Assembly (NCBI GenBank): GCA_023954155.1
Contig: JAMLIO010000003.1
Coordinates: forward strand, 1-64,000
Length of the DNA stretch: 64,000 nt
Direction of reading: 5' to 3'
Source of the DNA: Pseudobdellovibrionaceae bacterium
Lineage (GTDB): Bacteria > Bdellovibrionota > Bdellovibrionia > Bdellovibrionales > UBA1609
Positions 7,625 through 27,270 of the stretch are shown here, piece after piece. The translations under genes and the position numbers were made by a program. Position 1 is the stretch's first letter. Every line of letters starts with the position of its first letter. Under the pieces are notes generated by a model. The model did not search any database. It saw nothing but the letters and a program-made list of their open reading frames with translations, and had not been told where the DNA came from.

Positions 7625-7758
7625 AGACTTAACCCCTTTTAGGCTTATTAAGGCAAATTAGATGCCAGCCTAAGAGGGAAATTGAGCCCCCTAACTGTCT
7701 AACCCCTTGACACCCACGTCGTAGATGGGCCCTCTTTGCTTGCTCGTTAGAATTTAGA

Positions 7759-8961: not shown

Positions 8962-8976
8962 GGCACACTCCTACTC

Positions 8977-9372: not shown

Positions 9373-9470
9373 ACAATTCCCCGTATAGTCATAAGAACTA
9401 CAGCTCTACTACGTTCTTCAACAGAAAATACAATAAAATTCATAACCTTACAATTATTTAGAATGTTGTC

Positions 9471-9501
9471 TTGACCTTCCAATTGTTGGAAGGTTTAGAA
9501 T
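9471..9501 (+). promoter_or_regulatory. CueR-controlled copA promoter
   Basis: A -35 box TTGACC (9471-9476) and -10 box TAGAAT (9496-9501) are separated by 19 bp, the long spacer typical of MerR-family promoters. Within it lies the perfect dyad ACCTTCC-N7-GGAAGGT (9474-9494), the known CueR operator consensus. Confidence 0.93.
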
Positions 9502-9582
9502 GATTCACATAATAACCAAGACGACTTGATGAACCCCTTAGAAGAGCACATTAAAATAAGACTTGGGACAAAAGGAGAATTT

Positions 9583-12484: not shown

Positions 12485-12560
12485 TGGGGTATAGCCAAGT
12501 CGGTAAGGCAATGGATTTTGATTCCATCATTCCCAGGTTCGAGTCCTGGTACCCCATCCA
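12485..12560 (+). tRNA. tRNA-Gln (anticodon TTG)
   Basis: A complete cloverleaf with a 7-bp acceptor stem (TGGGGTA with TACCCCA) and encoded CCA. The anticodon stem ATGGA/TCCAT closes a 7-base loop TTTTGAT with anticodon TTG, and a GGTTCGAGTCC T-arm follows. The U1-A72 pair is typical of tRNA-Gln. The last 8 bases are also the start of the 33-bp direct repeat bounding the genomic island, so this gene is the integration site; its sequence is kept intact. Confidence 0.96.
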
Positions 12561-12585
12561 ATTTTCCTTCCAAAAAAATTAGCAC
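12553..12585 (+). repeat. attL: 33-bp direct repeat at tRNA-Gln 3' end
   Basis: This is identical over 33 bp to 27238-27270. It begins CCCATCCA (the tRNA 3' end) and finishes AAATTAGCAC. The match stops exactly at both edges. Confidence 0.95.
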
Positions 12586-12680
12586 TAAAAAAAGTTAAAA
12601 GATGTCAGGCACCTGCCTGATTTGATTAGAGAAAATGCGTTTGAAGAGTATTTCACGAAATTTCGATTTATTTCGATGTC

Positions 12681-12710
12681 TGGTGACCTTTTGGTGACCC
12701 GTTGGTGACC
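12681..12710 (+). repeat. Three TGGTGACC arm-type integrase sites
   Basis: TGGTGACC occurs at 12681, 12692 and 12703, an exact 11-bp period (one helical turn), about 100 bp inside attL. Related GGTGAC/GGTAAC pairs lie inside the middle and right att sites, as expected for arm-binding sites of a tyrosine integrase. Confidence 0.7.
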
Positions 12711-12840
12711 TGAAATCTGGCGTTTTTTTGCAGACTCATTCGGTATTTTTCTAAGGTTTGGACATTTCTCGTCTAAGCCTCTTCCCCTCAATTTTTAAAC
12801 CTATCAATCCCAAATTTTAAACCCATTTAAGGAGGTTCCC

Positions 12841-13011
12841 ATGATCCCAAAACAACTTATCAAAATCGCAATCGCTACGGTTCTTATCGCTGCTGCTTCT
12901 GGACAGCTACCCAAGCTCATCCAACTTACTAGAGTCGCGCAATATCAACTGCTCAAAGACTCACAAGCATCCAAATGGGGCAAACCCATGCTTCTACCTA
13001 TCAAAGAATAA
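12841..13011 (+). CDS. Small hypothetical protein, 56 aa
   Basis: A short frame, MIPKQLIKIAIATVLIAAAS onward, has an ideal ribosome site (AAGGAGG, 7 bases before ATG). The first 20 residues are a hydrophobic segment with a basic start, suggesting a signal or membrane anchor, followed by a short polar tail ending LLPIKE. It is the first gene inside attL. I do not recognise the family. Confidence 0.6.
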   Translation: MIPKQLIKIAIATVLIAAASGQLPKLIQLTRVAQYQLLKDSQASKWGKPMLLPIKE

Positions 13012-13279
13012 ACGACGGGCTGACTAAGCTCTTGTCGGATTCCATCTCTTAAACTCCTGACTTTTAGGTTTAACTGACGGTCGCTCCGACAATGTTCCTG
13101 ATTCGCCCCTTCGCAGGTCTCGCGCCATACGTTTCACTCCTGTCACTCACCTCTGCTCGCTTCGCTTGGTCGGGGCGAGGCCCTTTGTCTTCTCTCCCTT
13201 TTTCCCTTTTCGGGCTTCTCAGAACGCAAGCGAAGAAGCCCCTACAAGGGGAAAACAACAACCTAAAAAGGAGTTATTT
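13012..13279. other. GC-rich non-coding stretch upstream of a zinc-ribbon gene
   Basis: No convincing gene. From about 13075 to 13250 the DNA is much richer in G+C than the rest of the island and contains short repeats of CGCTTCGC type and a GAAGCCC/GGGCTTC inverted pair around 13208-13240. This could be a structured leader RNA or foreign DNA. Open frames here exist on both strands and look incidental. Confidence 0.35.
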
Positions 13280-13702
13280 ATGAGAGAAGAAATCCAACAA
13301 AAACTTAATCAACTTGCCCTTAATCGTTCTATTCCATTTTGCTATCATTGCTATGAAGAGGCCCCAACTGGCTGTTGTAAATCTTGTGGTTCAGATGATC
13401 TTATGCGCTTACTTCCAGAAGTGGGCTGCGAGTATGGTACTGACTGGATCATCAAACACATTTTAGAAACTGAGCTTGAAGCTTTAGACCTTGAAGAGTC
13501 CTTTGAAGACCTCATGCGTGGATGTTATCCAGAAACAACTCAAGTTGGCTGGATGGAATTTGATACTGTCACTTTGATGAAAGAAAATGATCCTATAGCT
13601 TGGCGTTGTGCACTTTCTGATTACGAATCAGAAGAAGAGTCTGAAGGAAATACTATTTCTTTTGATTCAGGCTCTACCATATTATTCTGTGCTCGATCTT
13701 GA
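13280..13702 (+). CDS. Hypothetical zinc-ribbon protein
   Basis: The start is set at the ATG at 13280, with AAAAAGGAG seven bases upstream; a longer frame from 13166 runs through the GC-rich leader. The 140-residue product carries CYHCYEEAPTGCCKSCG near its start, a CxxC...CxxC zinc-ribbon pattern, then an acidic region (LETELEALDLEESFEDL) and an acidic Ser-rich tail. The acidity and zinc site would suit a protein-binding or mimic function, but I do not recognise the family. It stands alone on the plus strand of the left island segment. Confidence 0.6.
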   Translation: MREEIQQKLNQLALNRSIPFCYHCYEEAPTGCCKSCGSDDLMRLLPEVGCEYGTDWIIKHILETELEALDLEESFEDLMRGCYPETTQVGWMEFDTVTLMKENDPIAWRCALSDYESEEESEGNTISFDSGSTILFCARS

Positions 13703-13728
13703 GTTACTTACTGGGTGATTCAAGATAT

Positions 13729-14799
13729 TTATCTTTTCCAAAAAATTTTCCATTCTTTGCCAGACTCAATTATAATAAAGTCGTCGTCTTTTTTATTAAA
13801 GTAGTACCAAGTATATTCTTTTAACTCTTTAGCAAAGTCTTCGTTTAAAATTTTTTCAGCGTCCTCGTGTGATTTAAAGGAAGGAAATAGTTTTTCGAGT
13901 CTTCTTTGATGACCAGTGTCTGGATAACATTTCTGAATCATTTTGTTAACAAGATGATCTAATGAGTTTTCTACATAGTAATATGATAGGTAGTAAGTAT
14001 CGTCTTTTTGGATGTCTACACGATAAGGCTGAATCCTCTTTCCTCTGGTTCCGTCTAACCAAATAAGTGTTAGATTATCTAAAATAGTTCCGTTATATTT
14101 TACAAAAAAATCTCTTCTTTTGGAATTTTTATCGGGAAAATTAATACTCCACGGCTCAACATAGGATTCTGAAAAATCTTGATCTTTTGCAACTATAGTA
14201 AATTCTGGAAATCGTTCATGGAAGAAATACAAATTTCCATTTTCATTGTATCCGTAGCTCCACATTTGAAGTTCGTGTAAATATTTAAAAAGTTTTTCTT
14301 TTGGCGTGAGTTTGAATCCAAAGCGCTCATAAAACATTTTTTCAACAATATGGTCTGCTGTTGTGCTATTGACTGGTGTATTTGTGTCAGCAACACGTGA
14401 AAATATAGCTCCTGCGCGTAGAGGACGCCCATTTGAAGTATAGTCCTCGGTAAGAAAATAAGGTTTTTCATCTTCATTTTTGATGATTAAAATATCAATT
14501 TCATGATTTTGGAAACATATTGTTTTTAAGGATATTTTTGGGATTTTATTTAAGCGCGCAGATCTAAGGATTGTGATTATATTGGCAATACTCTTCCTTT
14601 TGTTATCGGTTTCAATTCCACATATATTCTTATTATCTTGAACGCCAAAAACTAAATATCTATCTGAATCCGTGATTGAGTTTGCTAAATTCAAAATATC
14701 ATGGATCAAGTCTGAGTTTGTAGAAGGATACTCTTGCTTGAAATCAAGAGCTTCATTTTCTTGTGAGCTAAGCAAGTCATCTATTGATAAATTATTCAT
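13729..14799 (-). CDS. Schlafen/AlbA_2-domain protein
   Basis: The first ~150 residues match the Schlafen AlbA_2 domain (formerly divergent AAA-4): the opening ENEALDFKQEYP with the E...FK pattern, LANSITDSDRYLVFGVQD, and a later RAGAIFSRVAD strand. AlbA_2 proteins bind nucleic acid or nucleotide and often occur in defence islands and on mobile elements. The C-terminal 200 residues are rich in aromatic and charged residues and not recognised. It lies 72 bases downstream of the putative toxin-antitoxin pair on the same strand. Whether it belongs to that operon is uncertain. Confidence 0.75.
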   Translation of the reverse strand: MNNLSIDDLLSSQENEALDFKQEYPSTNSDLIHDILNLANSITDSDRYLVFGVQDNKNICGIETDNKRKSIANIITILRSARLNKIPKISLKTICFQNHEIDILIIKNEDEKPYFLTEDYTSNGRPLRAGAIFSRVADTNTPVNSTTADHIVEKMFYERFGFKLTPKEKLFKYLHELQMWSYGYNENGNLYFFHERFPEFTIVAKDQDFSESYVEPWSINFPDKNSKRRDFFVKYNGTILDNLTLIWLDGTRGKRIQPYRVDIQKDDTYYLSYYYVENSLDHLVNKMIQKCYPDTGHQRRLEKLFPSFKSHEDAEKILNEDFAKELKEYTWYYFNKKDDDFIIIESGKEWKIFWKR

Positions 14800-14871
14800 A
14801 AATTCCCTTTAGAATATTTTTTATATATAAAGACCTTATAACTTTGGCGGTTCTCCCACAAAACTGTAAAC

Positions 14872-15465
14872 TCAAAACTTCGGCGAAATTCTATAAACAT
14901 CTGCTCCGATAGTAACCTCAACCATCTTGGAACTAACAAAGCTTATGATAACGGAGTGAGGATCCATCCCTTTTGAATCTATGTATTTTTTAAAGTAAAC
15001 AGCGTAATTTATATTTTTATCATTATCTCGAACAGATTTATATTTTATTATATCAGGTACTTTCATGTTTTTTATGAATTTGTGAGCATGCGAATAAGAC
15101 TTACGGCTCATAACTCCTTTGGGAGTTATTTTAGAAATATCTTTAATCTTAGGTTTATTAGTCAATTTCAAATAATAGAGAGCAGCTTTCACAGGCTTGT
15201 TCCCATGAATAAATTTTTTATTATTCAGTAAATGAAAACAGTATTCATAAAAAGTCGTCTTGTCATTTTCTGAAACGTAAATAGGAATAGGCGAAAAATA
15301 TGGCGGGCAAAAACGGGATTCATTAGCATTTGCCTTTCGCGAGAAAACCTCTTCCAACATATCGGATGCAGAGAGAAGGCTTTGCATAGCCTGAATCTCC
15401 TCAATAGAATCTAAAAAATGCTCAATATCTGCCGTCTTTGGCGCGCATGTTCTAAATATGTTCAT
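14872..15465 (-). CDS. Unrecognised protein paired with an Xre/MbcA/ParS-type antitoxin (candidate toxin)
   Basis: This 197-residue protein overlaps the antitoxin-like gene by 4 bases (ATGA), as toxins commonly do in two-gene modules. I do not recognise it. It is basic in the middle (KPKIKDISK, SRKSYSHAHKFIKN), has an N-terminal helical part (DIEHFLDSIEEIQAM) and a beta-rich C-terminus (SVIISFVSSKMVEVTI). It lacks the RES-domain motifs that usually accompany Xre/MbcA antitoxins. The role as toxin is inferred only from operon position. Confidence 0.6.
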   Translation of the reverse strand: MNIFRTCAPKTADIEHFLDSIEEIQAMQSLLSASDMLEEVFSRKANANESRFCPPYFSPIPIYVSENDKTTFYEYCFHLLNNKKFIHGNKPVKAALYYLKLTNKPKIKDISKITPKGVMSRKSYSHAHKFIKNMKVPDIIKYKSVRDNDKNINYAVYFKKYIDSKGMDPHSVIISFVSSKMVEVTIGADVYRISPKF

Positions 15466-15878
15466 GGGTTAGATAGATGACTAATTATGTCTCGGGTATA
15501 ACTTAGGTTTTTTGGATTTTCTCTTATCAACTCAAGCGGAGATCTATCGCCCATCCCCTCATTGGCCTCTCGTAGCCAGTCAACTCTATCTTTTACAGAT
15601 ACAAATAGGTTTGTCAGTGCTTTATAAAGCTCTATGAACTCAAATAATTGATAATCATTCATGTCGGGTGTTTTTGAAATTGGAATAGTTCCTTTTTTTT
15701 TCCATTCCGAAATAGTGGTAGGCTGACGACCAACCAACACAGCCAACTCGGCTTGATTCAAGCCCCACTCTCGCATAATTCCAAATATAACTTTGAACAA
15801 AGCCTGTCCTTTTACAGCATTATCATCATTATCTTTTTCGATCTTTTTTGCATTAGTAAAGTTTAAAACTGTTTCCAT
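15462..15878 (-). CDS. Xre/MbcA/ParS-family antitoxin-like regulator
   Basis: The ATG at 15878 is chosen, with AGAGGT seven bases upstream; a GTG at 15893 is also possible. An N-terminal HTH (WGLNQAELAVLVGRQPTTISEWKKK) is followed by the toxin-binding region pattern DWL-R-AN-GMGDRSPLELI, as in the Xre/MbcA/ParS antitoxin family. These antitoxins bind their own promoter and neutralise a partner enzyme, commonly RES or ParT. Here the partner gene is not RES-like. The upstream region is a run of TA repeats that could be its operator. Confidence 0.78.
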   Translation of the reverse strand: METVLNFTNAKKIEKDNDDNAVKGQALFKVIFGIMREWGLNQAELAVLVGRQPTTISEWKKKGTIPISKTPDMNDYQLFEFIELYKALTNLFVSVKDRVDWLREANEGMGDRSPLELIRENPKNLSYTRDIISHLSNP

Positions 15879-15936
15879 AGAAGTACCTCTCACCTATATA
15901 ATATCGGAAGCTTTCACAATTTTCAATACAAAATTG

Positions 15937-15972
15937 GATATATATATATATATTTAACTACAATATATATAT
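15937..15972. promoter_or_regulatory. TA-repeat promoter region of the antitoxin-like gene
   Basis: Two (AT)n blocks, about 15938-15954 and 15963-15972, lie 60-95 bases upstream of the antitoxin-like start and form an imperfect inverted arrangement. This is a likely promoter/operator by position. The rest of the 15894-16289 gap holds no gene, only AT-rich DNA and the middle att site. Confidence 0.35.
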
Positions 15973-16083
15973 CTTATTGTTTTTACTTTATTTTTATAAA
16001 TATCCAAAATTTGATATTTATAAATTTATTATCAATATCAACTTATTTTGAGACGATCTGGTGCAACTATTTCATCCTAAAAA

Positions 16084-16167
16084 AGGTAACTTTTGGTAAC
16101 CAGTCCTTAGAAAAGTTCTGAAATATCAAGAAACTACAAAAAACGCGTCACCCCATCCAATTTTCCT
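16084..16167. repeat. Middle att site with arm-type repeats
   Basis: A 16-bp match (CCCATCCAATTTTCCT, 16152-16167) to the att core is preceded by the pair AGGTAAC (16084) and TGGTAACC (16094), about 50 bases before the core. This is the same spacing seen at the right end (27171-27186 to 27238). Beyond the core the DNA resembles that after attL (AAAAGAGGTCAGGC against AAAAGATGTCAGGC), then diverges. Confidence 0.75.
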
Positions 16168-16289
16168 ATTTAAAAAATTAAAAGAGGTCAGGCGCGTGGT
16201 ATTCTGTGTGCTAATATTTAATGTTCACTATGAAACGAGAAGATCCAGAGTTTTTTCACCCTTTGAAGTACCTATAATACTTTACTCAT

Positions 16290-17873
16290 CTATTCAAACT
16301 CTCTAAACTCCTTAGAAACATATCTTCTATATGCAGCCAATTGCCTTTTCAACTCATCTTTTAATTCATTGTCTAACCGACGAGTTAGCTCACCAAAATG
16401 CGCTTCATAGGTTGAAAGTGTATAAAAAAAGTTATTTAAATTTTGTCTGACTTTATCTTCATCATCTTCATAAAAAAGAGCAGAATAACCAGGATGATTT
16501 TCGTTAAAAAGAACCGTAACTTCACCCTCTTTATTGACCATTGGAGCCCATAGGCAATCATAAGGCAAATGATCGACTATCATCCACCATTCATCTTCCA
16601 AGTCTTCCTTTAAGTCATCTTCTATTCCTTTTTGCTTATCATCATAACCTGGAATTGCATTAGAAATTTTGTTGTCTCTATCCATTCTTAAATCAGCTGG
16701 AGAAGGCTTTCCCTTTCCAGATTTTTTTAGTTCTTCATCGGCCTTTTTCTTTTGCCATTGTCGCTTAAACTCCGTGCCCTCATCCCTATACCTGTCTTCG
16801 CTATCCGAAAAAATTTGATTTATATACTGCTGGTTGAGCTTGGCAGTGACGTGGTCTTGTATTTCTGGCTTAGTCTTGGTGTGGTCCACACCCATTAAAT
16901 TGTCTCCATCATCAGAAAACTCTATCAAAATTCTACATGGGCTATGATGATGCGAAAATGCTCTTGTCCCATACCACCCTCCTTGAGTAATCAAACGTCC
17001 ATTTCGGGAAATATATAAACCCTGCTCTTGAATTTTTAATTGAGCTCCACCAAATTGGGGAGAAGCACTTTTTAGAAACATTCTTAGATTTTTTCTTTCT
17101 TTCTCAGACCAATGGCCACCACGACCTAAATGTGCTGCAGATACTTTAAAAATTACTTTTGATCCATCATCATCTTCAATTTCAATCTCTTTCAATGAAT
17201 ATGAATGATAATAATTTAATCGAGAGTTCTTCTGTAGCTCAGGAAGGAGAGGGTTTATTGGGTCAACTGGTGCCCTATCTATCATGATCACCAATTCATC
17301 TCGTTCCAACATACCATAAAAGGATAACCCTAAACGATTTCTTAAACTATCAATTAAATCTGCTCTTACTTTACGTTTGTTAACTTGTCTAATTTCAATG
17401 ATTGTCCCGTTTGTAAGGCCCGTCTGATTCCAAAGTTCCGTTGGCTCGATAGATACTTTTATTAGATTATCTTTGCTCTTCTTTCGCAAACTTTCTAAGG
17501 GCATCTCCACATAATAAAATGTCCCTCCTCTTCTTCTTGTATGAATGCATATTATATCACCCAAACTAAACCCTGCCGATTTCAATCCAACTCCATACTT
17601 TCCCTTTTGACCTTTTTTTGCAGATTTGTGACCAGCATTTCTCCATGGAGTAATTGCTCCCTTAAGATCGTCTTCATTCATTCCTTCGCCATCATCTACA
17701 ATTTGGATTCCTTCATCTTTATCTATGTATATGTGAATCACTGTAGCTTTCGCATCCACACTATTGTCAACTATATCGGCAATAGCTTCGTGAAATGAGT
17801 ATTTGAATCCACGAATGGACTCAAATAGCCCTGAAATTGGAACCTCTAAAGGTAAGTCGAACTGAGTTTTCAT
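16290..17873 (-). CDS. MORC/MutL-like GHKL ATPase
   Basis: The start is set at the ATG at 17873 with GGGAGA upstream. The Bergerat fold is clear: N-box EAIADIVDNSVDA (Glu29, Asn37), G1 box DDGEGM at 60-65 and G2 box GKYGVGLKSAG at 91-101, followed by an S5-like transducer region (to ~330). The C-terminal part contains a charged coiled stretch (QWQKKKADEELKKSGKG) and an acidic region. MutL/MORC-type GHKL ATPases have been described in restriction-modification-like operons with SNF2 helicases. Here it is the last gene of the operon after the ParB-like, helicase and DUF3883 genes. It probably forms an ATP-gated DNA clamp; not shown. Confidence 0.85.
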   Translation of the reverse strand: MKTQFDLPLEVPISGLFESIRGFKYSFHEAIADIVDNSVDAKATVIHIYIDKDEGIQIVDDGEGMNEDDLKGAITPWRNAGHKSAKKGQKGKYGVGLKSAGFSLGDIICIHTRRRGGTFYYVEMPLESLRKKSKDNLIKVSIEPTELWNQTGLTNGTIIEIRQVNKRKVRADLIDSLRNRLGLSFYGMLERDELVIMIDRAPVDPINPLLPELQKNSRLNYYHSYSLKEIEIEDDDGSKVIFKVSAAHLGRGGHWSEKERKNLRMFLKSASPQFGGAQLKIQEQGLYISRNGRLITQGGWYGTRAFSHHHSPCRILIEFSDDGDNLMGVDHTKTKPEIQDHVTAKLNQQYINQIFSDSEDRYRDEGTEFKRQWQKKKADEELKKSGKGKPSPADLRMDRDNKISNAIPGYDDKQKGIEDDLKEDLEDEWWMIVDHLPYDCLWAPMVNKEGEVTVLFNENHPGYSALFYEDDEDKVRQNLNNFFYTLSTYEAHFGELTRRLDNELKDELKRQLAAYRRYVSKEFREFE

Positions 17874-17911
17874 TTTGATCTCCCTATCTAAACTCGATGG
17901 CATTATACATT

Positions 17912-18286
17912 TTAATATACTATCTTTAATTTACAGACTTCTGCATTTTTAAAAACTCCTTTCGCCACAGGGTTTCTTATTTCATGAACAACTTGACCCA
18001 AATTCACATCTACCAAATACAAAAATGCCAACTCCCCCAAAGCCCCAAGACGTTCCATCTCATTTTTTGAAATAAAAAATGTGTTTGATGAACCGAACGC
18101 CTTTACTTCAATAAATCTTGGAGTCACTGGATGACCTACAGAATCTATAGATTCTATATCATACCCCAAAGAAGTATTGTCAGAGACAAGAGTAACAAAT
18201 TTCGAAGCACCACAAATTTTTAACCGTGAAAACTCATAATCCAATGCTATTTCCTCAGCCCTATCTCCAATTTCTAATCTATTCAT
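17912..18286 (-). CDS. DUF3883 (PD-(D/E)xK nuclease-like) protein
   Basis: A 124-residue stand-alone DUF3883 domain. Visible are SDNTSLGYDIESID, the catalytic-like Asp43, and FIEVKA with Glu60 and Lys62, giving the D...ExK nuclease pattern, then FFISKNEMER. DUF3883 often occurs fused to or beside helicases and GHKL ATPases in defence loci. The start overlaps the helicase stop by 4 bases and the GHKL gene begins 38 bases after its stop, so it is central in the operon. The nuclease role is inferred from residues; a purely DNA-binding role is possible. Confidence 0.82.
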   Translation of the reverse strand: MNRLEIGDRAEEIALDYEFSRLKICGASKFVTLVSDNTSLGYDIESIDSVGHPVTPRFIEVKAFGSSNTFFISKNEMERLGALGELAFLYLVDVNLGQVVHEIRNPVAKGVFKNAEVCKLKIVY

Positions 18287-19806
18287 GGCGCTTTCCGTGT
18301 ATTCAATTTAAGTTCGTCAAGCAAAGCCTGCTGGCTATCCAACTTTGCAAATTGTCGTGTAGCCTGCCTTCTTAACCTCAATTCAGATGGAATAGCATAT
18401 ATATATCGAAAACCACCCTCAGGAAAAATATACGGTCTCCTAATCCGAAACTTACTTTGGTAGAAGTCAGCCCCGTTTGTTGTGATTTCATAGAAAAATG
18501 CTATCCTTGCTCCCGATTCCTGAAGATTTAATCCAGTGGAACCCACTCTGTAATTCGCTATCAATAGTTTGCACTCAGGATTTCGATTGAATTGATCAAT
18601 GGCCTTTTGTTGACACTCTGGTTTCCTACCAAGAAGGAGAACAGAAGAATTCGGGTCATCAGTATGGTAGGTGCCACTTAAGACTGCCTTTCCGATTTCT
18701 GGAAATTTGTTGTAGACATGGGAAATAGCGGCGTTTGTGGTACAAAAAATAATTGCCTTTCTCCCAGCCTCAATCTCTCTAGATATTTCAGCTACAAGAT
18801 GAGAGTCCAATTCACCTTGATTTCTATAGGTAAATTTCACCTTATCTACAGGCGCATATGATAGATCTTCTTCTCCCGATACGAAGGCCATACCTTCTAA
18901 TATTTGATAGTCTTCAGGAGGAATTTCATTCCGATAATGCTGCTCTGGCAAAGGATCACTAACTAGAGAAAGATATCCTCTCACGTCTTTAGGCCCTTTG
19001 GGCATCGGTGTGGCAGTACTCAAAATAACTCTTCCAAAGAATGGAGCCACACGTCGAACCGATTTGCTAACTCTACTTTTTACATTTTTTAAGGCATGAG
19101 CCTCGTCTGGCAATAAAACTGTCTCCCTACCATGAAACCTATTCGTAAATGCCCTCAACTCGTTTGTAAAACTGTGAACTTTTGAATAAGGCAAAACAAC
19201 AATGTCACAGTTTGTTGTTTCAAATCGACATTGAATTTCATGGTTCGAGGCACAGGAGAGATCTTCAATGGTTAAATCAAAATATTTAGCAAACTTTCTT
19301 ACTTCTCTCGAATACACCCCAGTGGCAGTGTTTGGAGACAGTATTAGTGCTCTAACCCCACCTCTATCCTTAAGAAATTGTAAAACAGTTAGCATTATTA
19401 TGGTTTTTCCAGACCCACAAATAGCCGAAAGCAAAGTGATATGGTTTCTTAACGAAAGCAAAATCCCCTGCTCTTGAATTGCTCTAAAATCAACACCTAG
19501 AGATTCCAAATAACTCAAAATTTCCAAATCAGTATATTCATTGCAACCATATCTCAACTTATCAGCCCATTCGGCCTTCTTTTGCCTATATTCTACATCC
19601 TCTTCTGGAACCCGAATACCAAACCCACGCCCTCTTAAAAAATCTCTAAGAGGGCCAACCATGCTACTTTCAATTTTCGCGAGTCTAAGAGTAAAATCTT
19701 CTAATGGTGGGTTAACTGCAAATTTAATTGCAGAATCAGCCGCGGGTGGCCATCGTAAGAAACTTGCGCCTTCAATTTCATCATATCGTATTTCAACTGT
19801 ATTCAT
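18283..19806 (-). CDS. SNF2-type superfamily II helicase/translocase
   Basis: About 507 residues from the ATG at 19806; a GTG at 19815 directly abutting the upstream stop is the alternative. Motif I is GSGKT, motif II PDEAH, motif III STATP, and the C-lobe shows GSTGLNLQES and a QSKFRIRRP motif VI with its arginine finger. The 120-residue N-terminal extension is not recognised and may bind a partner. SNF2 enzymes track along double-stranded DNA using ATP without strand separation. Tight packing with the ParB-like gene and DUF3883 gene argues for one functional complex. Confidence 0.88.
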   Translation of the reverse strand: MNTVEIRYDEIEGASFLRWPPAADSAIKFAVNPPLEDFTLRLAKIESSMVGPLRDFLRGRGFGIRVPEEDVEYRQKKAEWADKLRYGCNEYTDLEILSYLESLGVDFRAIQEQGILLSLRNHITLLSAICGSGKTIIMLTVLQFLKDRGGVRALILSPNTATGVYSREVRKFAKYFDLTIEDLSCASNHEIQCRFETTNCDIVVLPYSKVHSFTNELRAFTNRFHGRETVLLPDEAHALKNVKSRVSKSVRRVAPFFGRVILSTATPMPKGPKDVRGYLSLVSDPLPEQHYRNEIPPEDYQILEGMAFVSGEEDLSYAPVDKVKFTYRNQGELDSHLVAEISREIEAGRKAIIFCTTNAAISHVYNKFPEIGKAVLSGTYHTDDPNSSVLLLGRKPECQQKAIDQFNRNPECKLLIANYRVGSTGLNLQESGARIAFFYEITTNGADFYQSKFRIRRPYIFPEGGFRYIYAIPSELRLRRQATRQFAKLDSQQALLDELKLNTRKAP

Positions 19807-19815
19807 AACAATCAC

Positions 19816-20892
19816 CTACACCAATGTTTTTTCTAAACTTCTAAACTTTTGTATTTGTGTTTCGAGCAAAGAAACAATGTCTGAGGCAACTGTTTTGTCT
19901 TGAAGTTCAAATGTCCTATTCCACTCCCTATCTAGAGCCTTTCTCACCTCTTTTACCGGACTTTCTGATCGAATCATTGCTAATCGAACATTTGCAGTAA
20001 GTTCTCGCAAAGAATCAATGCTATTTAAATCAACCTCTCCATCGTAAACCGATACCAAAATGGGATCTGACGGAACTGAGTGGGAAAGATAATTAATTGT
20101 TGTTTTAACATCATCATGCGCCACCTGGTGCTTGATATATGCATGCATCAAGTTATCCAAATGTTGCAGTCTCACAAACTCACCTTTATGCCTTAACTCT
20201 TGAAATTCATTCTCGTTCAATTGGTCACAAGTCGCGAAAGTCTTAAACTGATTCTTTCTCTCCTCAGGGCTAACGCCGATACGCTCACAGACTTGATCCA
20301 TGAAGATTGAACGCCTCTCTGCCGTTAAGACTTGATTACGCTTTAAACCAGTTCTCTGCATGATTTCACCAATTTTTGCTTCTCTTTTTGACTTGTCTTC
20401 AACGCCTCTCAATTCGTTATACACAACTCTAGCTCGTGCATAATTTGTGTGAAGCACCTTTGATGGATTGGCCTCCGGATGATCTCTCAAAAATTTTTTT
20501 GTACTTTCATCGATGTTCATCGCAATCAGCACTCGAAGCTTTTCAATACCCGCATCCTCTGCAGCTATTCCCCTACGATGTCCATGAATTTTTTGTACCC
20601 TCTTCATGCCTGGATTCAAATAAGCAATAATTGGTTCCGAAGCTGAAGGAATAAACTGTAATGATTTAACCAAATTCTTATGCTCCTTTGGAGCTTCAAT
20701 ACGAATTCTTTCCTCTTGTTTTTCTTTAGAAACATTCTCTCCACCCCAACGAACATTGTATTCATCAACGTCCATTTCGACATTAGCTAAATCAGCCTCT
20801 ACCCATTGGATAATCTTTCCGTCAGGGGTTATAGATTCAATTGTATTAATAATATTTTCTTCGCCAACAATGGCTTTATAATCAAAACTCAT
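19816..20892 (-). CDS. ParB/sulfiredoxin-like domain protein
   Basis: A 358-residue protein whose first 130 residues carry a ParB/Srx-like domain: EPIIAYLN, then the HGHRRGIAAEDAG motif (GHRR at 104-107) that in the ParB family binds CTP or ATP. A helical region follows with LKRNQVLTAERRS, possibly an HTH. ParB-like proteins occur in several DNA-modification defence loci as well as in partitioning; no parA gene is near, so partitioning is unlikely. A ribosome site TAGGAG lies ten bases upstream of the ATG. It begins the four-gene block ParB-like, SNF2, DUF3883, GHKL. Confidence 0.8.
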   Translation of the reverse strand: MSFDYKAIVGEENIINTIESITPDGKIIQWVEADLANVEMDVDEYNVRWGGENVSKEKQEERIRIEAPKEHKNLVKSLQFIPSASEPIIAYLNPGMKRVQKIHGHRRGIAAEDAGIEKLRVLIAMNIDESTKKFLRDHPEANPSKVLHTNYARARVVYNELRGVEDKSKREAKIGEIMQRTGLKRNQVLTAERRSIFMDQVCERIGVSPEERKNQFKTFATCDQLNENEFQELRHKGEFVRLQHLDNLMHAYIKHQVAHDDVKTTINYLSHSVPSDPILVSVYDGEVDLNSIDSLRELTANVRLAMIRSESPVKEVRKALDREWNRTFELQDKTVASDIVSLLETQIQKFRSLEKTLV

Positions 20893-21296
20893 TTCAAATT
20901 TCTCCTAAAATTCTTTAAATTGATAAATAAAAAGATATAATCCCATGAATGGGAGTTAGAATAATAAAATTTTTTTAGGAGATTAATTAGGTAATAAGAA
21001 AATGTAGCATTACTGCCTCCTTTTTTACCTTCGCTAAAAAGCAAAGAGCCAAAGTAAGTATTGTTTACTGGAGTATTTGAAAATGTTCCCTTCCAAAGAA
21101 AGCGATCACTTTTAAAGTACACTCACAAAGCATTATATCAAATTCGAATTCTAAAGTCAAATTTATTGGCATTCCAACGTAAGTAGTTGAAATAATAATC
21201 AAAACCTCTTTGTTGAATTGAATGTTGTTCTAGGGTTTAACTAAATTAGTTTAAAACCAATCGCTCGAAATAAAATTGAAATGTGCATTTTGCCAC
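20893..21296. other. 404-bp leader between methyltransferase and ParB-like genes
   Basis: No convincing gene. On the minus strand a strong AGGAGG precedes a seven-codon frame (ATG 21010 to stop 20987, MLHFLIT). TCCCAT-GA-ATGGGA at 20941-20954 is a perfect 6+2+6 inverted repeat about 50 bases upstream of the ParB-like start and may be an operator. A 77-codon frame across the region has composition typical of AT-rich non-coding DNA. The layout suggests a separate promoter for the four-gene block. Confidence 0.4.
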
Positions 21297-22496
21297 TCAA
21301 ATAGATCGCTTCTTTCTATGAAAAAGAACAACCTCTTTGCACTTGTCAGAGGATGCAGTTCTATTAAACCATTTTCTATTTGGAACCTCTCTCCATAAGC
21401 GGCCGTCAGGACTAGACGTATCTATATTACGAATTTCCTCAAATCCTGTTTCATTCAAAGCCGAAAGGTACAACGGTAATTGGTCTTTTAAATTATTGAA
21501 GGCAAGAACCTGAACAAATACACCATTCTTTTCCATAACCTTGTTAAGGTTTTCAAATGCTAACATCATGTTTGTGATATAGATTTCCAAACTAGCAACG
21601 CCATCCCTTGATCCCATGGTATAAAATGGCTCACTTTCAATCTGATTACTATCAATTATCCAATATGGGAGTCTTGTCTCTAATCTTCCATTTACCTGCC
21701 ACTTATTATAAAGAATATGTCTTTCAGGATAAGGAGGGGACGTTACAACCAGGCTAAATGGCTTTCTCGAAGTTTTCCACTCATTAGTGACATTTGGTTC
21801 AGATGCGCTTTCCAGCCGAATATGTGTAGATGGGATAAAGTCTACAGGATTTGAGTTAAATTCAAGATAAAGCTGAAAAGACATATCAATTTGAGAGCTT
21901 AATGTTTGTTTGTAAATCTCCTCTGCCTGTCTAATTGTTTTCACCAACAGCCTTTGTTCCACTTCCAGTTGCCCAAGCCTTAACAGAGCTCCCTTTGCGA
22001 AATTTCTTAGCTTGTTTGTTGGTAGTACTCTAATAGCTGAAGATATCTTTCGAGTAGAAAGCTCAATAATTTTTGGAATGTTGGTAAAATAAATCTCATC
22101 ACCAGCTCTATACTCAGGCTCTTGATCATTAAGGAAAAGAGCTGAAGCCCATTCTAAAAGCTTACTCGCCTCCCCTTTTGAAATAAGAGTTGTTTTTAGT
22201 TCTGCTGAAAACACAGCTAATTCATTGATGTCAGTTCCAACAAAGTTACGTCTTGCGACCATGGCCTCTACCGCGCAAGTCCCCCCACCGACAAAGGGAT
22301 CAAGTATCCAATCATCTATTTTTGAAAAACTATTTATAACTGCTTTCGGAAAGCTTGGAGGGAAGCAAGCAGGATATTTATATAAATTATGAGTCCAGTT
22401 ATTAATTTTTTGTTTATGAGTAACACTATCTCTCACTTCAGATAGTGCCAACCTAGTACTACGATGTGATTCTTTATTAAGTAATCTTTCTAGCAT
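21297..22496 (-). CDS. DNA methyltransferase (TSPPY type) of the island defence locus
   Basis: A 399-residue SAM-dependent amino-methyltransferase (N4-cytosine or N6-adenine). Motif X/I is FPPSFPKAVINSF...DPFVGGGT at 46-73 (AdoMet binding), and the catalytic motif IV is TSPPY at 252-256. Motif I thus precedes motif IV with about 180 residues between, possibly holding the target-recognition region. The C-terminus (GRLWREVPNRKWFNR) is typical of such enzymes. It sits upstream of the ParB/SNF2/DUF3883/GHKL block on the same strand and would protect self DNA in an R-M-like system. Target sequence unknown. Confidence 0.85.
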   Translation of the reverse strand: MLERLLNKESHRSTRLALSEVRDSVTHKQKINNWTHNLYKYPACFPPSFPKAVINSFSKIDDWILDPFVGGGTCAVEAMVARRNFVGTDINELAVFSAELKTTLISKGEASKLLEWASALFLNDQEPEYRAGDEIYFTNIPKIIELSTRKISSAIRVLPTNKLRNFAKGALLRLGQLEVEQRLLVKTIRQAEEIYKQTLSSQIDMSFQLYLEFNSNPVDFIPSTHIRLESASEPNVTNEWKTSRKPFSLVVTSPPYPERHILYNKWQVNGRLETRLPYWIIDSNQIESEPFYTMGSRDGVASLEIYITNMMLAFENLNKVMEKNGVFVQVLAFNNLKDQLPLYLSALNETGFEEIRNIDTSSPDGRLWREVPNRKWFNRTASSDKCKEVVLFHRKKRSI

Positions 22497-22594
22497 GATG
22501 CTCCCATAATAAATTACACAATATCCTTTTGTCTAGGCCAAATAGTTATTCCTGGTCAGAAGTCCGTACAACCGCTCATCTTTCTAATAAATTC

Positions 22595-22614
22595 TAAATA
22601 TTATATAATATTTA
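22595..22614. promoter_or_regulatory. 20-bp perfect palindrome, candidate controller operator
   Basis: TAAATATTAT joined to its exact reverse complement lies between the divergent methyltransferase (22496) and HTH (22681) genes. Only A and T are used, so a chance palindrome is possible, but the position fits a C-protein-style operator. Confidence 0.4.
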
Positions 22615-22680
22615 AATTATATTTTTAAAATTATAACTTTTATATTATACTTACATAAAACAAATGCAAGGTATAAAGCA

Positions 22681-22941
22681 GTGAAAAAAAAGAAAGCTAT
22701 TATCCCAAAAACTAAATTTAGATTTTCGGAGTTACTTGGAGACACTTCTATTCTTGAGTTAGCAGACGAAATGGGCGTAACTTACACTCAGCTTTATCCT
22801 TACAAAAAACCTGGCGTAAACCCTACCCTACTTGCAATGGAACAAATTGCAGAAGCTCTTTCTCGGATTAGGCACGAAAAAATAACCGTAATCGATTTGA
22901 TTGATCCCAAAGGAAAGAAAAAAAAGAAGAAGTCTAAATAA
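22681..22941 (+). CDS. Small Cro/CI-like HTH regulator, possible R-M controller
   Basis: An 86-residue basic protein with an HTH-like core (SILELADEMGVTYTQLYPYK, then LLAMEQIAEAL) and a Lys-rich tail. The start is a GTG; AAGGTA lies about ten bases upstream. It is divergent from the methyltransferase across a palindrome-containing gap, the position used by controller proteins of restriction-modification systems. The function is inferred from fold and place. Confidence 0.65.
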   Translation: MKKKKAIIPKTKFRFSELLGDTSILELADEMGVTYTQLYPYKKPGVNPTLLAMEQIAEALSRIRHEKITVIDLIDPKGKKKKKKSK

Positions 22942-23632
22942 AAAGCGACAACACATTAAATGTTGCCGCTTCCATAGAGTGAATGGCGAAAGTCAGTTAC
23001 TACTCATAGTCAGGAGTTTGCGAAAGAACTTCCACAAGCTCATCTTCAATGACACCACGTCATTTTCCGTCGCTATTTTCACAAGCCACCATTTCCTTCG
23101 AAAGACCTTGTGCTGCACAAAGTGGTCTAAAGGCTATGGGTGCTTGAAGTCCATTTGCCATCACCACAACTCCACATTGTAGAAGGTCTTTAGGTGGGTT
23201 GTAGCCTTTGCAAGGGTCAAAACCACCACCGCCAAATAGACGCAGACCTGCCTGAAGAATTGAAAAAAGCTATTCGTGCCCGCTACGGCATTGCTGGTAA
23301 AAAAGAGAAAAACGCCCCTCGAAATAGTGTTAAAGCTCCTAAACAAGAGGGAGGAACTGTTTTCAGTTCTCCCCTCTTAATTAACAGCTTTTTATTCTTA
23401 TTTTTTACCCCACTTTTTATATTGGGGTAAAATAATAGAATATCGAAGCCTTAAAGATATAGCCTGCATAGTAATAAAAAGGCCCTCATGTTTTAAAATG
23501 ACACACTATCCATATAACTTCTAAGTACCTGAAAATACTTGTGTGATATTGACAAAATGCTAGAATATTCCCCAATATAGGGATATTTATAGCATTACAA
23601 CATTTGACTTTCATCCCTTTAACAGGGAAAAT
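22942..23632. other. 691-bp stretch without a supported gene
   Basis: Short open frames occur on both strands. Two look like decayed coding fragments: a minus-strand stretch near 23040-23180 reading MANGLQAPIAFRPLCAAQ, and a plus-strand stretch near 23232-23300 reading DLPEELKKAIRARYGIAG. Neither has a ribosome site or full length. I read the segment as gene debris plus the abiE promoter region. Confidence 0.4.
23345..23378 (+). terminator. Long hairpin, probable terminator
   Basis: AAGAGGGAGGAACTG and CAGTTCTCCCCTCTT form a 15-bp stem with two internal mismatches around a TTTT loop. T-rich sequence follows after AATTAACAGC, so termination may be imperfect. Confidence 0.5.
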
Positions 23633-24448
23633 ATGAGCATGAAAACAACGGGAAATAAACCCATCTATTTGATCGACTATGCTGAGTCCCTACAAAGGAA
23701 AGGTCGCTACTTCTTTTCCAAACAAGAAGCTATGGATGCTCTTGGCATTTCCTCTTCAGCGTTTGGTAAGGCTGCAAATCGTCTGAGCCAAAGCACTAAG
23801 ATCATGCGCGTGAAGAATAACTTTTATGCCGTCGTACCTCCTGAATATCGAGACTCTAAGGGACTACCACCTACCTTCTTCATAGACCATCTGATGAAAT
23901 TTATTGGGCAACCTTACTATGTCGGAGTGCTGTCAGCCGCAGCCCTACACGGAGCCGCACATCAGTCTCCACAAGAACTTCAAGTTGTTACAACAAAGCG
24001 ACTTTTAAACCTAGAACATCAAAATTCGCGTGTACGTTTCTTAAATAAGAAACGTATGGAAAACACTTTTGTAGAAACTAAAAAAACTCCTATGGGAAGT
24101 TTACGAGTTTCCACACCAGAAGCTACAGCCCTTGATTTACTTCGCTATGTTCGCTTTGCAGGTCATCTTGATAATGTAGCTACTGTGTTGATTGAGCTAT
24201 CCGAAGTTATGCAAGCTAGAAAGCTAATGGAAGCCGCTAAAGCTGATAATGAGCTTTCCTATGCTCAACGCCTCGGCTACCTATTAGATCGTTTTGTTTC
24301 TACAAAACTTACTGAGCCATTACATACATGGCTTTCTAAACAGAATCCAAGCCCTGTTTTTCTTCGTGCCGATCAACGTAAAGGTGTTACTGAGCGCGAC
24401 AACAAATGGCAGGTCATGGTTAATACGGAGGTTGATCCAGATTTATGA
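23633..24448 (+). CDS. abiEi: AbiEi-family antitoxin of a type IV toxin-antitoxin system
   Basis: A 271-residue AbiEi-like protein: an N-terminal winged-helix (YFFSKQEAMDALGISSSAFGKAANRL) that represses the operon, then the AbiEi domain with YYVGVLSAAALHGAAHQSP and STPEATALDLLRYV. It overlaps the AbiEii gene by 4 bases. In AbiE systems the antitoxin does not bind the toxin but counters its effect and represses transcription. AbiE can act as abortive phage defence. GGGA lies upstream of the ATG. Confidence 0.92.
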   Translation: MSMKTTGNKPIYLIDYAESLQRKGRYFFSKQEAMDALGISSSAFGKAANRLSQSTKIMRVKNNFYAVVPPEYRDSKGLPPTFFIDHLMKFIGQPYYVGVLSAAALHGAAHQSPQELQVVTTKRLLNLEHQNSRVRFLNKKRMENTFVETKKTPMGSLRVSTPEATALDLLRYVRFAGHLDNVATVLIELSEVMQARKLMEAAKADNELSYAQRLGYLLDRFVSTKLTEPLHTWLSKQNPSPVFLRADQRKGVTERDNKWQVMVNTEVDPDL

Positions 24449-25269
24449 TTGAACAACAATTTATCGCTGGATGGCGATCTCAAGCTCCATGGCCCGAATC
24501 TCATCAAGTTGAGCAAGACCTTGTTTTAAGTAAAGCTATTGTGCAGATTTTTTCTGATCCACTTCTAAAAACCACTTTTGCATTTCGTGGAGGAACGGCT
24601 TTACAAAAACTTGTCTTCGATAAACCCAATAGATACTCAGAAGATATTGATCTTGTACAAGTAGAAAGTGGCCCTGTTGGAAAGGCTCTTGATGCCCTTA
24701 GAAGTTTACTTGACCCTTGGCTTGGAAAGCCCCGCATTGACCGCAAAGAAGCACGCGTGACTTTAAGCTACAAGTTTAAGTCCGAAGTTGAACCTGTATT
24801 ACCAATGCGTCTTAAAGTTGAAATCAACACAGATGAAAACTTCATGCTACTACCCTCAAAAAGAAAAACCTTCCAAATGCAAAGCGCATGGTTTCAAGGG
24901 CAAGCCGATGTATTGATTTACGAAACCGAAGAGCTTTTAGGAACAAAACTACGCGCACTCTATCAAAGAAAAAAGGGACGCGATCTTTACGATATGTGTA
25001 TGGCTTTGCAGCATATTGAGGGAATTGATTGTACAAAAATTGTTGAGTGCTTTCATGGTTACATGAAACATCAAAACTTGAGTGTGTCTCGCGCTCAGTT
25101 TGAGTCTAACTTGCATGGTAAATTGAATGATTTAACTTTTACGGAAGACATATTACCTCTTCTCTCTAAAAGTGCACCAAAGTTTGATCCTGTAGCTGAG
25201 GCTGAAATTATAAAATCAAAGCTTATTACACTCCTTCCTGGCGAGCCATGGAAAGGACAAAAAAGTTGA
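24445..25269 (+). CDS. abiEii: AbiEii-family nucleotidyltransferase toxin
   Basis: A 274-residue nucleotidyltransferase of the AbiEii/MenT family. Diagnostic motifs are FRGGTALQKL (GG...) and RYSEDIDLV with the paired acidic residues, then LRALYQRKKGRDLYDM. Family members transfer nucleotides to tRNA acceptor ends or other targets and stop growth. It follows abiEi with an ATGA overlap, the standard order. Confidence 0.93.
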   Translation: MIEQQFIAGWRSQAPWPESHQVEQDLVLSKAIVQIFSDPLLKTTFAFRGGTALQKLVFDKPNRYSEDIDLVQVESGPVGKALDALRSLLDPWLGKPRIDRKEARVTLSYKFKSEVEPVLPMRLKVEINTDENFMLLPSKRKTFQMQSAWFQGQADVLIYETEELLGTKLRALYQRKKGRDLYDMCMALQHIEGIDCTKIVECFHGYMKHQNLSVSRAQFESNLHGKLNDLTFTEDILPLLSKSAPKFDPVAEAEIIKSKLITLLPGEPWKGQKS

Positions 25270-25277
25270 GTAAAAAC

Positions 25278-25751
25278 ATGAAGACAAATCTTTATATTTT
25301 AGTTTTCTTATTCTTATCGGGCTGTGCATCTTTACCTCAGACAAAGCTTGATTCAACATCAAGCCAAGAGTGTCTTCATTCTGAAACATCTTTTAATTGC
25401 GTGAAGGTTGTTGAAGTTTACGATGGAGACAGCATCTTTATTGACCTACCTGACCAACATCCTCTTTTTGGAAAAAGAATGGGTGTGCGTATTCTGGGAA
25501 TTGATACGCCTGAATTAAGAACGAAAGACTCTTGTGAAAAGAAAAAAGGAATCGAAGCAAAAGATTTTTTAACCAAAATTCTTGCTTCAGCTAAACGCAT
25601 CGACATTGTTGATGTTCAAAAAGATAAATTTTTTAGAATCCTTGGTACGGTAAAGGCTGATGGCCTGTCAGTTGCTGATGAGTTAATAAAACAAAGATTT
25701 GCCTACCCCTACTTTGGAGAAAAGAAAGTTAAGAGAAATTGGTGTAAGTAA
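25278..25751 (+). CDS. Staphylococcal-nuclease-like (thermonuclease) lipoprotein
   Basis: From the ATG at 25278 the protein has a signal peptide with lipobox LSGC, so it should be lipid-anchored. The SNase-like fold shows YDGDSIFI, the GVRILGIDTPELR block with catalytic Arg and Glu, and a later ADELIKQRFAYPYFG. SNase-like enzymes cut DNA and RNA with calcium. In an island an external anchored nuclease may degrade incoming or extracellular DNA; that is inference. It follows abiEii by 8 bases. Confidence 0.85.
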   Translation: MKTNLYILVFLFLSGCASLPQTKLDSTSSQECLHSETSFNCVKVVEVYDGDSIFIDLPDQHPLFGKRMGVRILGIDTPELRTKDSCEKKKGIEAKDFLTKILASAKRIDIVDVQKDKFFRILGTVKADGLSVADELIKQRFAYPYFGEKKVKRNWCK

Positions 25752-25828
25752 TAATTTATGATTTTTTAGACCTGAGACATATCATTTCCTTTTTTAGCCG
25801 ATTGAAAGGCTAACAAATAAGGAGTAAT

Positions 25829-26053
25829 GTGGACTCCAGAAAATCAGAGCCGAAAAGCTCACAGTTCTTTGAAAACAGAATAGCAGCCGAATGGGTTTGT
25901 ACTAAGACCGCCGCAGCGATACTAGGCATTTCACCAAACGCTTTACGGATTCGTAAATGCAGAGGTGAGATCGAGTGTCGCTATTTCGGAAACCAACTTA
26001 GATTCAACGTGAGCTACCTACATACGCTTTTTCGTGAACAACGAAAAACGTGA
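25829..26053 (+). CDS. Excisionase-like small HTH protein
   Basis: A 74-residue protein starting at GTG 25829 with AAGGAG five bases upstream; the overlapping ATG at 25827 gives only a short frame. The core CTKTAAAILGISPNALRIRK is a MerR/Xis-type HTH used by excisionases. It ends 12 bases before the integrase gene, the usual xis-int arrangement. It may direct excision of the island. Confidence 0.72.
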   Translation: MDSRKSEPKSSQFFENRIAAEWVCTKTAAAILGISPNALRIRKCRGEIECRYFGNQLRFNVSYLHTLFREQRKT

Positions 26054-26065
26054 AAGGAATAGTTT

Positions 26066-27160
26066 ATGGGAATTAAGAAAGTTTTTGAAAACGGTAAGGC
26101 AAAGTACGAAGTCATAGTAAAAATTAGAGACAAGTCTGGCAAGCAAGTAACGCGAAAGAAAAAATGGTTCTTTAGCGAAGCTGCGGCCAAAAAAGCAGAG
26201 CTTGAGTTTCGTATGGAACTTGAAGGCTACAGAACCAAAGTGACATGGGAAAAGTGGATCGAGAGAGTTCTTGAAAAGTACAGAATCGAGTACAGAGCTT
26301 CAACTTACTGGAACTACAAGCACTGCCTTAACAAGTGGTTTAACCCTTTGTGGAACAAAAAGTTTGTGGATGAAATAAAACCAAGCGATGTTCACAGTGC
26401 GGTTTTTGAGGGAGCAGCAAGTTGCTCTAGCTACACTCAAAGGGGTCTTTTAAAAATCGTAAAACGAGTTTTTAACCTCGCCATTGAAGAAGGCATCATT
26501 GTTCGCAATCCTGCTGTAGGAATTAGAGTCAGGTGTGCTGAGGCCAATCAAGCAGTTCTTAATAAAAATGAAATTGAGATTCTGCTAAAAGAAGCCAAAC
26601 GCACAGAGCATAGATTCTTCCCCCACTGGACGCTTGCAATCCTTACGGGAATGCGCTCAGGTGAACTTTTTAGCTTACGCTGGACAGACGTTGATTTTGT
26701 CACTGGGAAGATTTCTATAAGTAAGGCTTGGACCCGCTACAACGGGGAAGGTCCGACAAAGACCGCGAAAGCCAGGATTTGTCCAATTTCAAATGAGTGC
26801 CGTAGATTCCTTGAGGAGTTAAAACTTAAAACGGCCAGAGATTCTGAGTTTGTACTTCCCCGTTTGTGGGAATGGCAACAGGGAGATCAGGCTAAGATTT
26901 TAAAAAACTTCTGTGAGGAGATCGGCATAACACCCATCAAGTTTCACGACTTAAGGGCTACGTTTATTACGCAAATGCTAAATAACGGAGTTCCCCTTTC
27001 TAAAGTCATGGCGATTGTGGGCCACTCTTCTTTAAAGACCACTCAAGGATACTTACGCCTATCGGGTAAGGATGTCGAGGGGGCAACGGAAGGATTGAAC
27101 ATTTCAATTCCGAGCAAAGAAGAAAGGCTTGGAAACGTCCTAGAACTCAGGAGAGGATAA
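26066..27160 (+). CDS. int: Tyrosine recombinase (island integrase)
   Basis: A 364-residue phage-type integrase with an N-terminal arm-binding region, a core-binding SAM-like domain (about 60-150) and the catalytic domain. The R-H-R-H-Y residues are visible: Arg197 (GMRSGELF), His294 and Arg297 (FHDLRATF), His320 (VGHSSLKTT) and Tyr329. It lies 77 bases from the right att repeat, reading outward, and should integrate at the tRNA-Gln 3' end. All catalytic residues are intact, so the island may still move. Confidence 0.95.
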   Translation: MGIKKVFENGKAKYEVIVKIRDKSGKQVTRKKKWFFSEAAAKKAELEFRMELEGYRTKVTWEKWIERVLEKYRIEYRASTYWNYKHCLNKWFNPLWNKKFVDEIKPSDVHSAVFEGAASCSSYTQRGLLKIVKRVFNLAIEEGIIVRNPAVGIRVRCAEANQAVLNKNEIEILLKEAKRTEHRFFPHWTLAILTGMRSGELFSLRWTDVDFVTGKISISKAWTRYNGEGPTKTAKARICPISNECRRFLEELKLKTARDSEFVLPRLWEWQQGDQAKILKNFCEEIGITPIKFHDLRATFITQMLNNGVPLSKVMAIVGHSSLKTTQGYLRLSGKDVEGATEGLNISIPSKEERLGNVLELRRG

Positions 27161-27170
27161 AAAAAGAAGT

Positions 27171-27270
27171 GGTGACTTGTGGTAACCCTCGGTGCTAATC
27201 TTTAAGGAAATCGGCAACTTGGGTCGCCGCAGAGTCACCCATCCAATTTTCCTTCCAAAAAAATTAGCAC
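27171..27270 (+). repeat. attR: arm-type sites plus 33-bp core repeat
   Basis: GGTGAC (27171) and GGTAAC (27181), ten bases apart, lie about 50 bases before the 33-bp core at 27238-27270, which is identical to attL. Confidence 0.9.

Follow-up and report, generated by a model that had tools for sequence, protein, structure and literature searches.

Prokaryotic MORC proteins are the proposed source of the eukaryotic MORC chromatin proteins, and their action in bacteria has been called poorly understood (PMC2292703, PMC8011034). The principle of joining a MORC ATPase to a superfamily II (SF2) helicase, a restriction endonuclease (REase) and a methylase was published in 2008, when the SNF2-associated MORC lineage was also predicted to act in restriction (PMC2292703). 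In the second type of restriction-modification (R-M) operon described by Iyer, Abhiman and Aravind (here MORC-SNF2 operons), a SWI2/SNF2 enzyme is accompanied by an HNH or EcoRII-like protein, a DNA methylase and Vsr (PMC2292703). GHKL ATPases are also found in the MZA system (mzaABCDE), in TmtA of Tiamat, where the ATPase and a NOV_C domain belong to a single protein of ~1400-1560 aa, and in VcSduA (Shedu type I-D, paraMORC3-like). VcSduA, in which the ATPase and a PD-(D/E)xK nuclease are fused, is phage-protective, and control of the nuclease by the ATPase was put forward as a hypothesis in the same study (PMC12137116). Here we describe a six-gene set of a Pseudobdellovibrionaceae bacterium, located in the first 64,000 nucleotides of contig JAMLIO010000003.1 (assembly GCA_023954155.1; this whole stretch is called the window). 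The best explanation, which we hold with a reasonable but far from full degree of confidence, is a divergent MORC-helicase R-M-like anti-phage system carried as cargo of an 11-kb element at tRNA-Gln. It draws on operon packing, MORC lineage, an SNF2-like helicase, a recurring gene order and conserved nuclease residues, as well as on the precedents of TmtA, SNF2-DUF3883 fusions and VcSduA, the R-M kinship of the methyltransferase and a defence-rich mobile context.

On the minus strand, the order of transcription is methyltransferase, ParB-like protein, helicase, NOV_C (DUF3883) protein and GHKL ATPase (Table 1). All six open reading frames (ORFs) listed by an earlier reading made from the letters alone (the sequence-only reading) are present, with the methyltransferase upstream and the helix-turn-helix (HTH) gene divergent, as it had placed them. 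The four large ORFs span 358 to 537 codons, as compared to a longest frame of 193 (mean 110) in 200 shuffles of the region. All ORFs are intact, catalytic motifs are present, and base composition is alike across the set (GC 0.35-0.40). The genes for the MORC ATPase, the NOV_C protein, the helicase and the ParB-like DNA-binding candidate form one tight operon of ~4.6 kb. The ParB-like and helicase genes abut (0 bp), the helicase and NOV_C genes overlap by 4 bp, and 8 bp separate the NOV_C and GHKL genes. The packing on one strand thus agrees with the sequence-only reading, which had given contacts of 0-38 bases; the 38-bp spacing is obtained only if the second Met is taken as the start of the GHKL protein. 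A good ribosome-binding site (AGGAG) precedes the ParB-like gene. The methyltransferase gene lies 404 bp away, and this gap contains the top promoter-like match of the region (21160-21132), in a region not enriched in promoter-like sites relative to shuffles. Because of the gap and of the promoter-like match before the ParB-like gene, the methyltransferase gene is most reasonably taken as a transcription unit next to the operon.

By its sequence, the ATPase is a prokaryotic MORC, as the sequence-only reading had proposed. It matches HATPase_c_3 in Pfam (PF13589, 3.6e-25). Its GHKL ATP-binding motifs are complete (N box ADIVDNSVDA, DDGEGM, GKYGVGLKS and GT) and fall in invariant columns of an alignment with plasmid relatives. 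The segment GLYISRNGRLI fits the S5-domain motif GhXhhpXXRhl of the MORC family (PMC2292703) except at one position, where S takes the place of a hydrophobic residue, and the S5 lysine, K343, is conserved. Among PDB entries, those related to it in sequence are structures of MORC2, and a full-length alignment, reaching residue 516, was obtained with a Rhodohalobacter MORC of the MORC-SNF2 type (L062; 26% identity, E 1e-32). The C-terminal domain of SNF2-associated MORCs (type A) scored 20.2 bits in the window MORC, against a best score of 7.3 among 90 MZA-type MORCs (adjoining Z1 genes) and of 8.5 in 1000 shuffles. Full-length homology and this lineage-specific domain tie the protein to the SNF2-associated R-M operons; on these sequence features, it belongs to the SNF2-associated MORC lineage and not to MZA. 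A tree placed it near the MORC-SNF2 clade, beside solo phage MORCs; this position was given little weight and the domain test was preferred because the branch is very long (3.93). Solo MORC-family genes, without helicase or Z1 partners, were observed in phage-like contigs L032, L042, L049, L050, L052 and L057; in L032 and L050, the encoded MORC has the type-A C-terminal domain.

The adjacent gene encodes a compact SF2 helicase/translocase with intact GSGKT, DEAH, STATP and QSKFRIRR motifs. Its Pfam matches are PF00270 (DEAD, 1.9e-11), PF04851 (ResIII, 2.6e-9) and PF00176 (SNF2, 1.3e-8), and hhalign against the SNF2 profile of MORC operons gave 97% (E 9.4e-11, 316 columns). The exact subfamily (SNF2) is therefore a softer assignment than the sequence-only reading had announced. 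In the MORC loci collected (42 viral and at least 80 from genomes), two architectures cover most neighbourhoods. MZA-like ones contain GHKL, Z1, DUF4420 and AIPR genes, usually with Dcm/Vsr; those of the MORC-SNF2 type contain Dcm, Vsr, SNF2, EcoRII-N, MORC and HNH genes, Dcm and Vsr occurring in most, not all, of them. With the MORC-SNF2 operons, the window shares the MORC C-terminal domain, the adjacent SF2/SNF2-type helicase, a nearby methyltransferase, and the order helicase, ~130-aa protein, MORC, which recurs in L020, L028, L031, L034, L062, L072, L075 and L090. Several such loci read SNF2, EcoRII-N (~140 aa), MORC, HNH, whereas the window reads ParB-like, helicase, NOV_C (124 aa), MORC. 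The NOV_C protein stands in place of EcoRII-N and the ParB-like protein is additional; no EcoRII-N, HNH, Dcm or Vsr was detected in the window element by Pfam. Moreover, the window methyltransferase is of the N4/N6 type, not C5 (Dcm), and MORC identity is only ~26%. A different arrangement was seen in an Eggerthellaceae locus (L067, 5587-11599), where an HNH gene flanked by two MORC genes lies downstream of one SNF2 helicase.

The stand-alone NOV_C protein (PF13020, 1.6e-10) has as best PADLOC matches PD-T4-1 (9.5e-14) and the C-terminus of Tiamat TmtA (8.3e-12). PD-T4-1 is listed as a PD-(D/E)XK nuclease system (PMC10952713), and DUF3883 has been described as a new REase domain that occurs joined to SNF2 helicases within R-M operons (PMC3710099). 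The protein carries the signature E11...D43...E60-x-K62. E11, D43 and K62 are invariant in 5 sequences, and four divergent relatives retain E11, D43 and (E/D)60-x-K62. Because this pattern matches that of PD-(D/E)xK-type nucleases, the protein is predicted to be one. TmtA models matched both window proteins in the PADLOC scan, the GHKL protein near the TmtA N-terminus and NOV_C at its C-terminus; the two genes thus correspond to domains fused in one defence protein. Plasmids contained a single NOV_C relative, a longer fusion protein of Hydrogenophaga that is not accompanied by a MORC or a helicase, and viral contigs contained none.

Other known systems resemble the set in part. The GHKL ATPase is related to MzaB (NF041932, 2e-19), but Z1, DUF4420 and AIPR were not found in the window element with Pfam or PADLOC, and the MZA-type MORCs tested lack the C-terminal domain of the window MORC. 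Tiamat also brings a GHKL ATPase and a NOV_C domain together, though in one large protein, whereas the window has two small genes (537 and 124 aa) accompanied by those for a helicase and a ParB-like protein. In VcSduA, the GHKL ATPase is likewise paired with a PD-(D/E)xK nuclease, but this is a DUF4263 domain of the same protein, and there is no helicase, ParB-like protein or methyltransferase (PMC12137116). MvaI/BcnI-type type II R-M units share with the window the methyltransferase family and an adjacent XRE-like HTH gene; however, the window set has no MvaI/BcnI-type endonuclease. The N-terminal GHKL domain also resembles that of the restriction enzymes BbrUII/HgiDII (NF050001, 5.1e-16), a single-enzyme family of 659 positions for which the cut-off is 550 bits and the window protein reaches 58. 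In line with the sequence-only reading, which had not recognised the exact set as BREX, DISARM, Dnd or Dpd, the PADLOC scan gave no match to the cores of these systems (PglZ/BrxC, DrmA/B, DndB-E, DpdA), and weak similarity of the helicase to DpdE, DrmD and ZorD was the sole trace of such systems. The exact gene set is absent from PADLOC systems and from the literature searched. It is nevertheless not the free-standing new system that had been implied, as the MORC lineage and the order helicase, small protein, MORC are already in the 2008 operons. Its R-M-like, defence-associated character is supported by the MORC lineage and by the defence-rich mobile element. Overall, the set appears to be a rare and strongly diverged form of the known MORC-helicase R-M-like anti-phage class.

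The ParB assignment is the weakest family call of the set. TIGR00180 matched with 17.7 bits (E 0.0023), under the cut-off of the model. With a profile built from 18 chromosomal ParBs, the score stayed below significance, and the alignment covered only 38 columns round the GxRRxxAA box (P 0.013). The protein carries a GHRRGIAA motif resembling ParB box II and an HTH-like segment, and residues 246-326 match PF22722 weakly (E 0.0019). The earlier ParB/Srx label therefore has to be softened.

The methyltransferase matches N6_N4_Mtase (PF01555, 3.1e-18), with motif I (DPFVGGGT) preceding motif IV (TSPPY). Its nearest relatives are an MvaI/BcnI R-M methyltransferase (L178, 27.6%) and a BfiI-type enzyme (L179), located in MvaI/BcnI and BfiI R-M units; no relative was found in viral contigs. 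This kinship and the TSPPY motif point to N4-methylcytosine as the probable product. The divergent gene encodes a small XRE-like protein with a weak HTH_3 match (E 0.11). It is a candidate controller; its divergent position agrees with the sequence-only reading, which had called it controller-like, while the HTH family call is weak. An HTH gene adjoins the MvaI/BcnI-type methyltransferase in L178 and L180. The segment 22586-22656, between the HTH and methyltransferase genes, is strongly AT-rich with imperfect palindromes and is a possible controller binding site.

These features bear on the main rival explanation, in which the methyltransferase and HTH genes are a separate unit. A methyltransferase regulated by the HTH protein, either solitary or left over from a type II system, would then neighbour an independent four-gene ParB-helicase-NOV_C-MORC defence operon recognising targets without host methylation (e.g. 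modified DNA, DNA ends or replication intermediates). The gap holding the best promoter-like site is consistent with it, as are the relatives of the methyltransferase, whose compact type II R-M units contain different nucleases, and the proximity of NOV_C to the PD-T4-1 and Tiamat models. To our knowledge, PD-T4-1 and Tiamat work without a methyltransferase. However, methyltransferase and operon are adjacent, on one strand and inside one 11-kb element, and a methyltransferase is usual in MORC-SNF2 operons (PMC2292703). We therefore regard two neighbouring systems as possible, though unlikely.

Homology and context suggest a defence role for the set. In the MORC-helicase R-M-like system that we favour, the methyltransferase would be regulated by the divergent HTH protein and would take part by marking host sites, probably with N4-methylcytosine, as a self mark. 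Unmarked incoming DNA would be bound or sensed by the ParB-like protein, which would recruit the SF2 helicase to translocate on DNA. GHKL clamps such as MutL undergo ATP-dependent closure and offer a model for the MORC step. A MORC dimer may thus close on DNA in an ATP-dependent manner and license the NOV_C nuclease to cut, by analogy with VcSduA. The ParB-like protein (recognition) and NOV_C (cutting) would take over from the EcoRII-N and HNH proteins of the classic MORC operons. The cassette suggests that the MORC-helicase core can exchange both recognition and cutting modules and, being small with a separate tiny nuclease, it would be convenient for studying the gating of a nuclease by a MORC ATPase. 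A bolder proposal, to which we give a low probability, is that a ParB-type nucleotide-switched clamp acts as sensor and loads MORC and helicase on invading DNA, which is compacted or silenced and then cut. If true, this machine, with the ParB-like protein, SF2 helicase, NOV_C and MORC as core, would parallel in bacteria the silencing by MORCs seen in eukaryotes.

Plasmids, phages, IMG/VR and 369 same-phylum genomes, as well as the GTDB matches listed, yielded no further copy of the gene set, and none of the other loci collected combines relatives of the MORC, the helicase and the ParB-like protein of the window. The ParB-like protein had no close relative in plasmids, phages, the 369 same-phylum genomes or the other genome and viral contigs searched. 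For the helicase, plasmids, same-phylum genomes and viral contigs had no close relative, and only short weak matches to phage helicases appeared. Several points weigh against the R-M-like system. The searches gave no second locus that would show co-inheritance of the five genes. The methyltransferase, at its distance from the operon, may be a separate unit, and no relative keeps the pair of methyltransferase and operon. The ParB assignment is sub-threshold, and the AlphaFold models of the ParB-like and NOV_C proteins (pLDDT 38.5 and 39.2) are too poor for fold search.

The unique combination and the very long MORC branch would also fit decayed or hybrid R-M cargo, that is, parts of different systems joined by island recombination and no longer one working unit; we consider this very improbable, as ORFs and catalytic motifs are intact and the genes touch or overlap, with similar GC. 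Equally improbable is a role of the ParB-like protein, methyltransferase and ATPases in stability or replication of the integrative element rather than in defence, since, despite the ParB-like motif and the position beside an attachment (att) site on an integrase-bearing element, there is no ParA in the element, and MORC, NOV_C and SF2 helicases are repeatedly tied to restriction and defence.

The 16-nt core CCCATCCAATTTTCCT has exactly three copies in the genome, all in the window and in one orientation, at 12553 (tRNA-Gln 3′ end), 16152 and 27238. GGTGACC/GGTAACC arm-like repeats lie near each of these att-like sites. From the three direct repeats, the island can be read as a tandem of two elements. 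In the first (12553-16152), which has no integrase of its own, lie the Schlafen/AlbA_2 gene and the RES/Xre pair. The second (16152-27238, 11.1 kb) contains the MORC set, which begins 138 bp inside it, AbiEi/AbiEii, a staphylococcal-nuclease-like protein and an integrase. Genes to the left of 16150 lie beyond the internal att site, outside the MORC unit; for this reason, the Schlafen/PDC-S50 and RES/Xre genes were ruled out as members. The defence-rich mobile context (AbiE, RES/Xre, PDC-S50) supports a defence role of the MORC set.

Table 1. Features of the gene set and of the tRNA-Gln island (positions in the window)
Feature	Position	Strand	Remarks
tRNA-Gln 3′-end att repeat	12553-12585		33-nt exact match to 27238-27270
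Schlafen AlbA_2 protein	13729-14799	-	PADLOC candidate PDC-S50, 6.7e-81
RES-domain toxin and Xre/MbcA/ParS antitoxin pair	14872-15465, 15462-15893	-	
Internal att site	16150-16167	+	left end of set-bearing element; 18-nt exact copy of tRNA-Gln 3′ end region
Six-gene set	16290-22941		five genes on -, HTH gene on +
GHKL/MORC ATPase gene	16290-17903	-	537 aa
NOV_C/DUF3883 gene	17912-18286	-	124 aa
SF2 helicase gene	18283-19815	-	510 aa
ParB-like gene	19816-20892	-	358 aa
Candidate promoter of four-gene operon	21132-21160	-	TTGACT-17-TATAAT, extended -10, 11/12; consensus match only
Methyltransferase gene	21297-22496	-	399 aa
Small XRE-like HTH gene	22681-22941	+	divergent from methyltransferase gene
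AbiEi/AbiEii toxin-antitoxin pair	23633-25269	+	second element
Staphylococcal-nuclease-like lipoprotein gene	25248-25751	+	overlaps AbiEii; odd cargo
Tyrosine recombinase (integrase) of second element	26066-27160	+	PF00589 1.5e-27
attR, right end of element	27238-27270	+	33-nt exact copy of 12553-12585

Same-phylum MORC relatives L186 (with PAPS-reductase/DndC-like neighbours), L187 and L188 (MZA-type) were set aside, their context being different from that of the window set. In L186, from a genome of the same family, the GHKL gene is near a PAPS-reductase/DndC-like gene (7525-11660), and a similar pair is found in L097. The L186 arrangement suggests that a GHKL protein is associated with a locus of the phosphorothioate type. 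Finally, a photolyase gene (27333-28808, minus strand) adjoins attR, and a second copy in the genome, at C1:502788, shows 53% identity.

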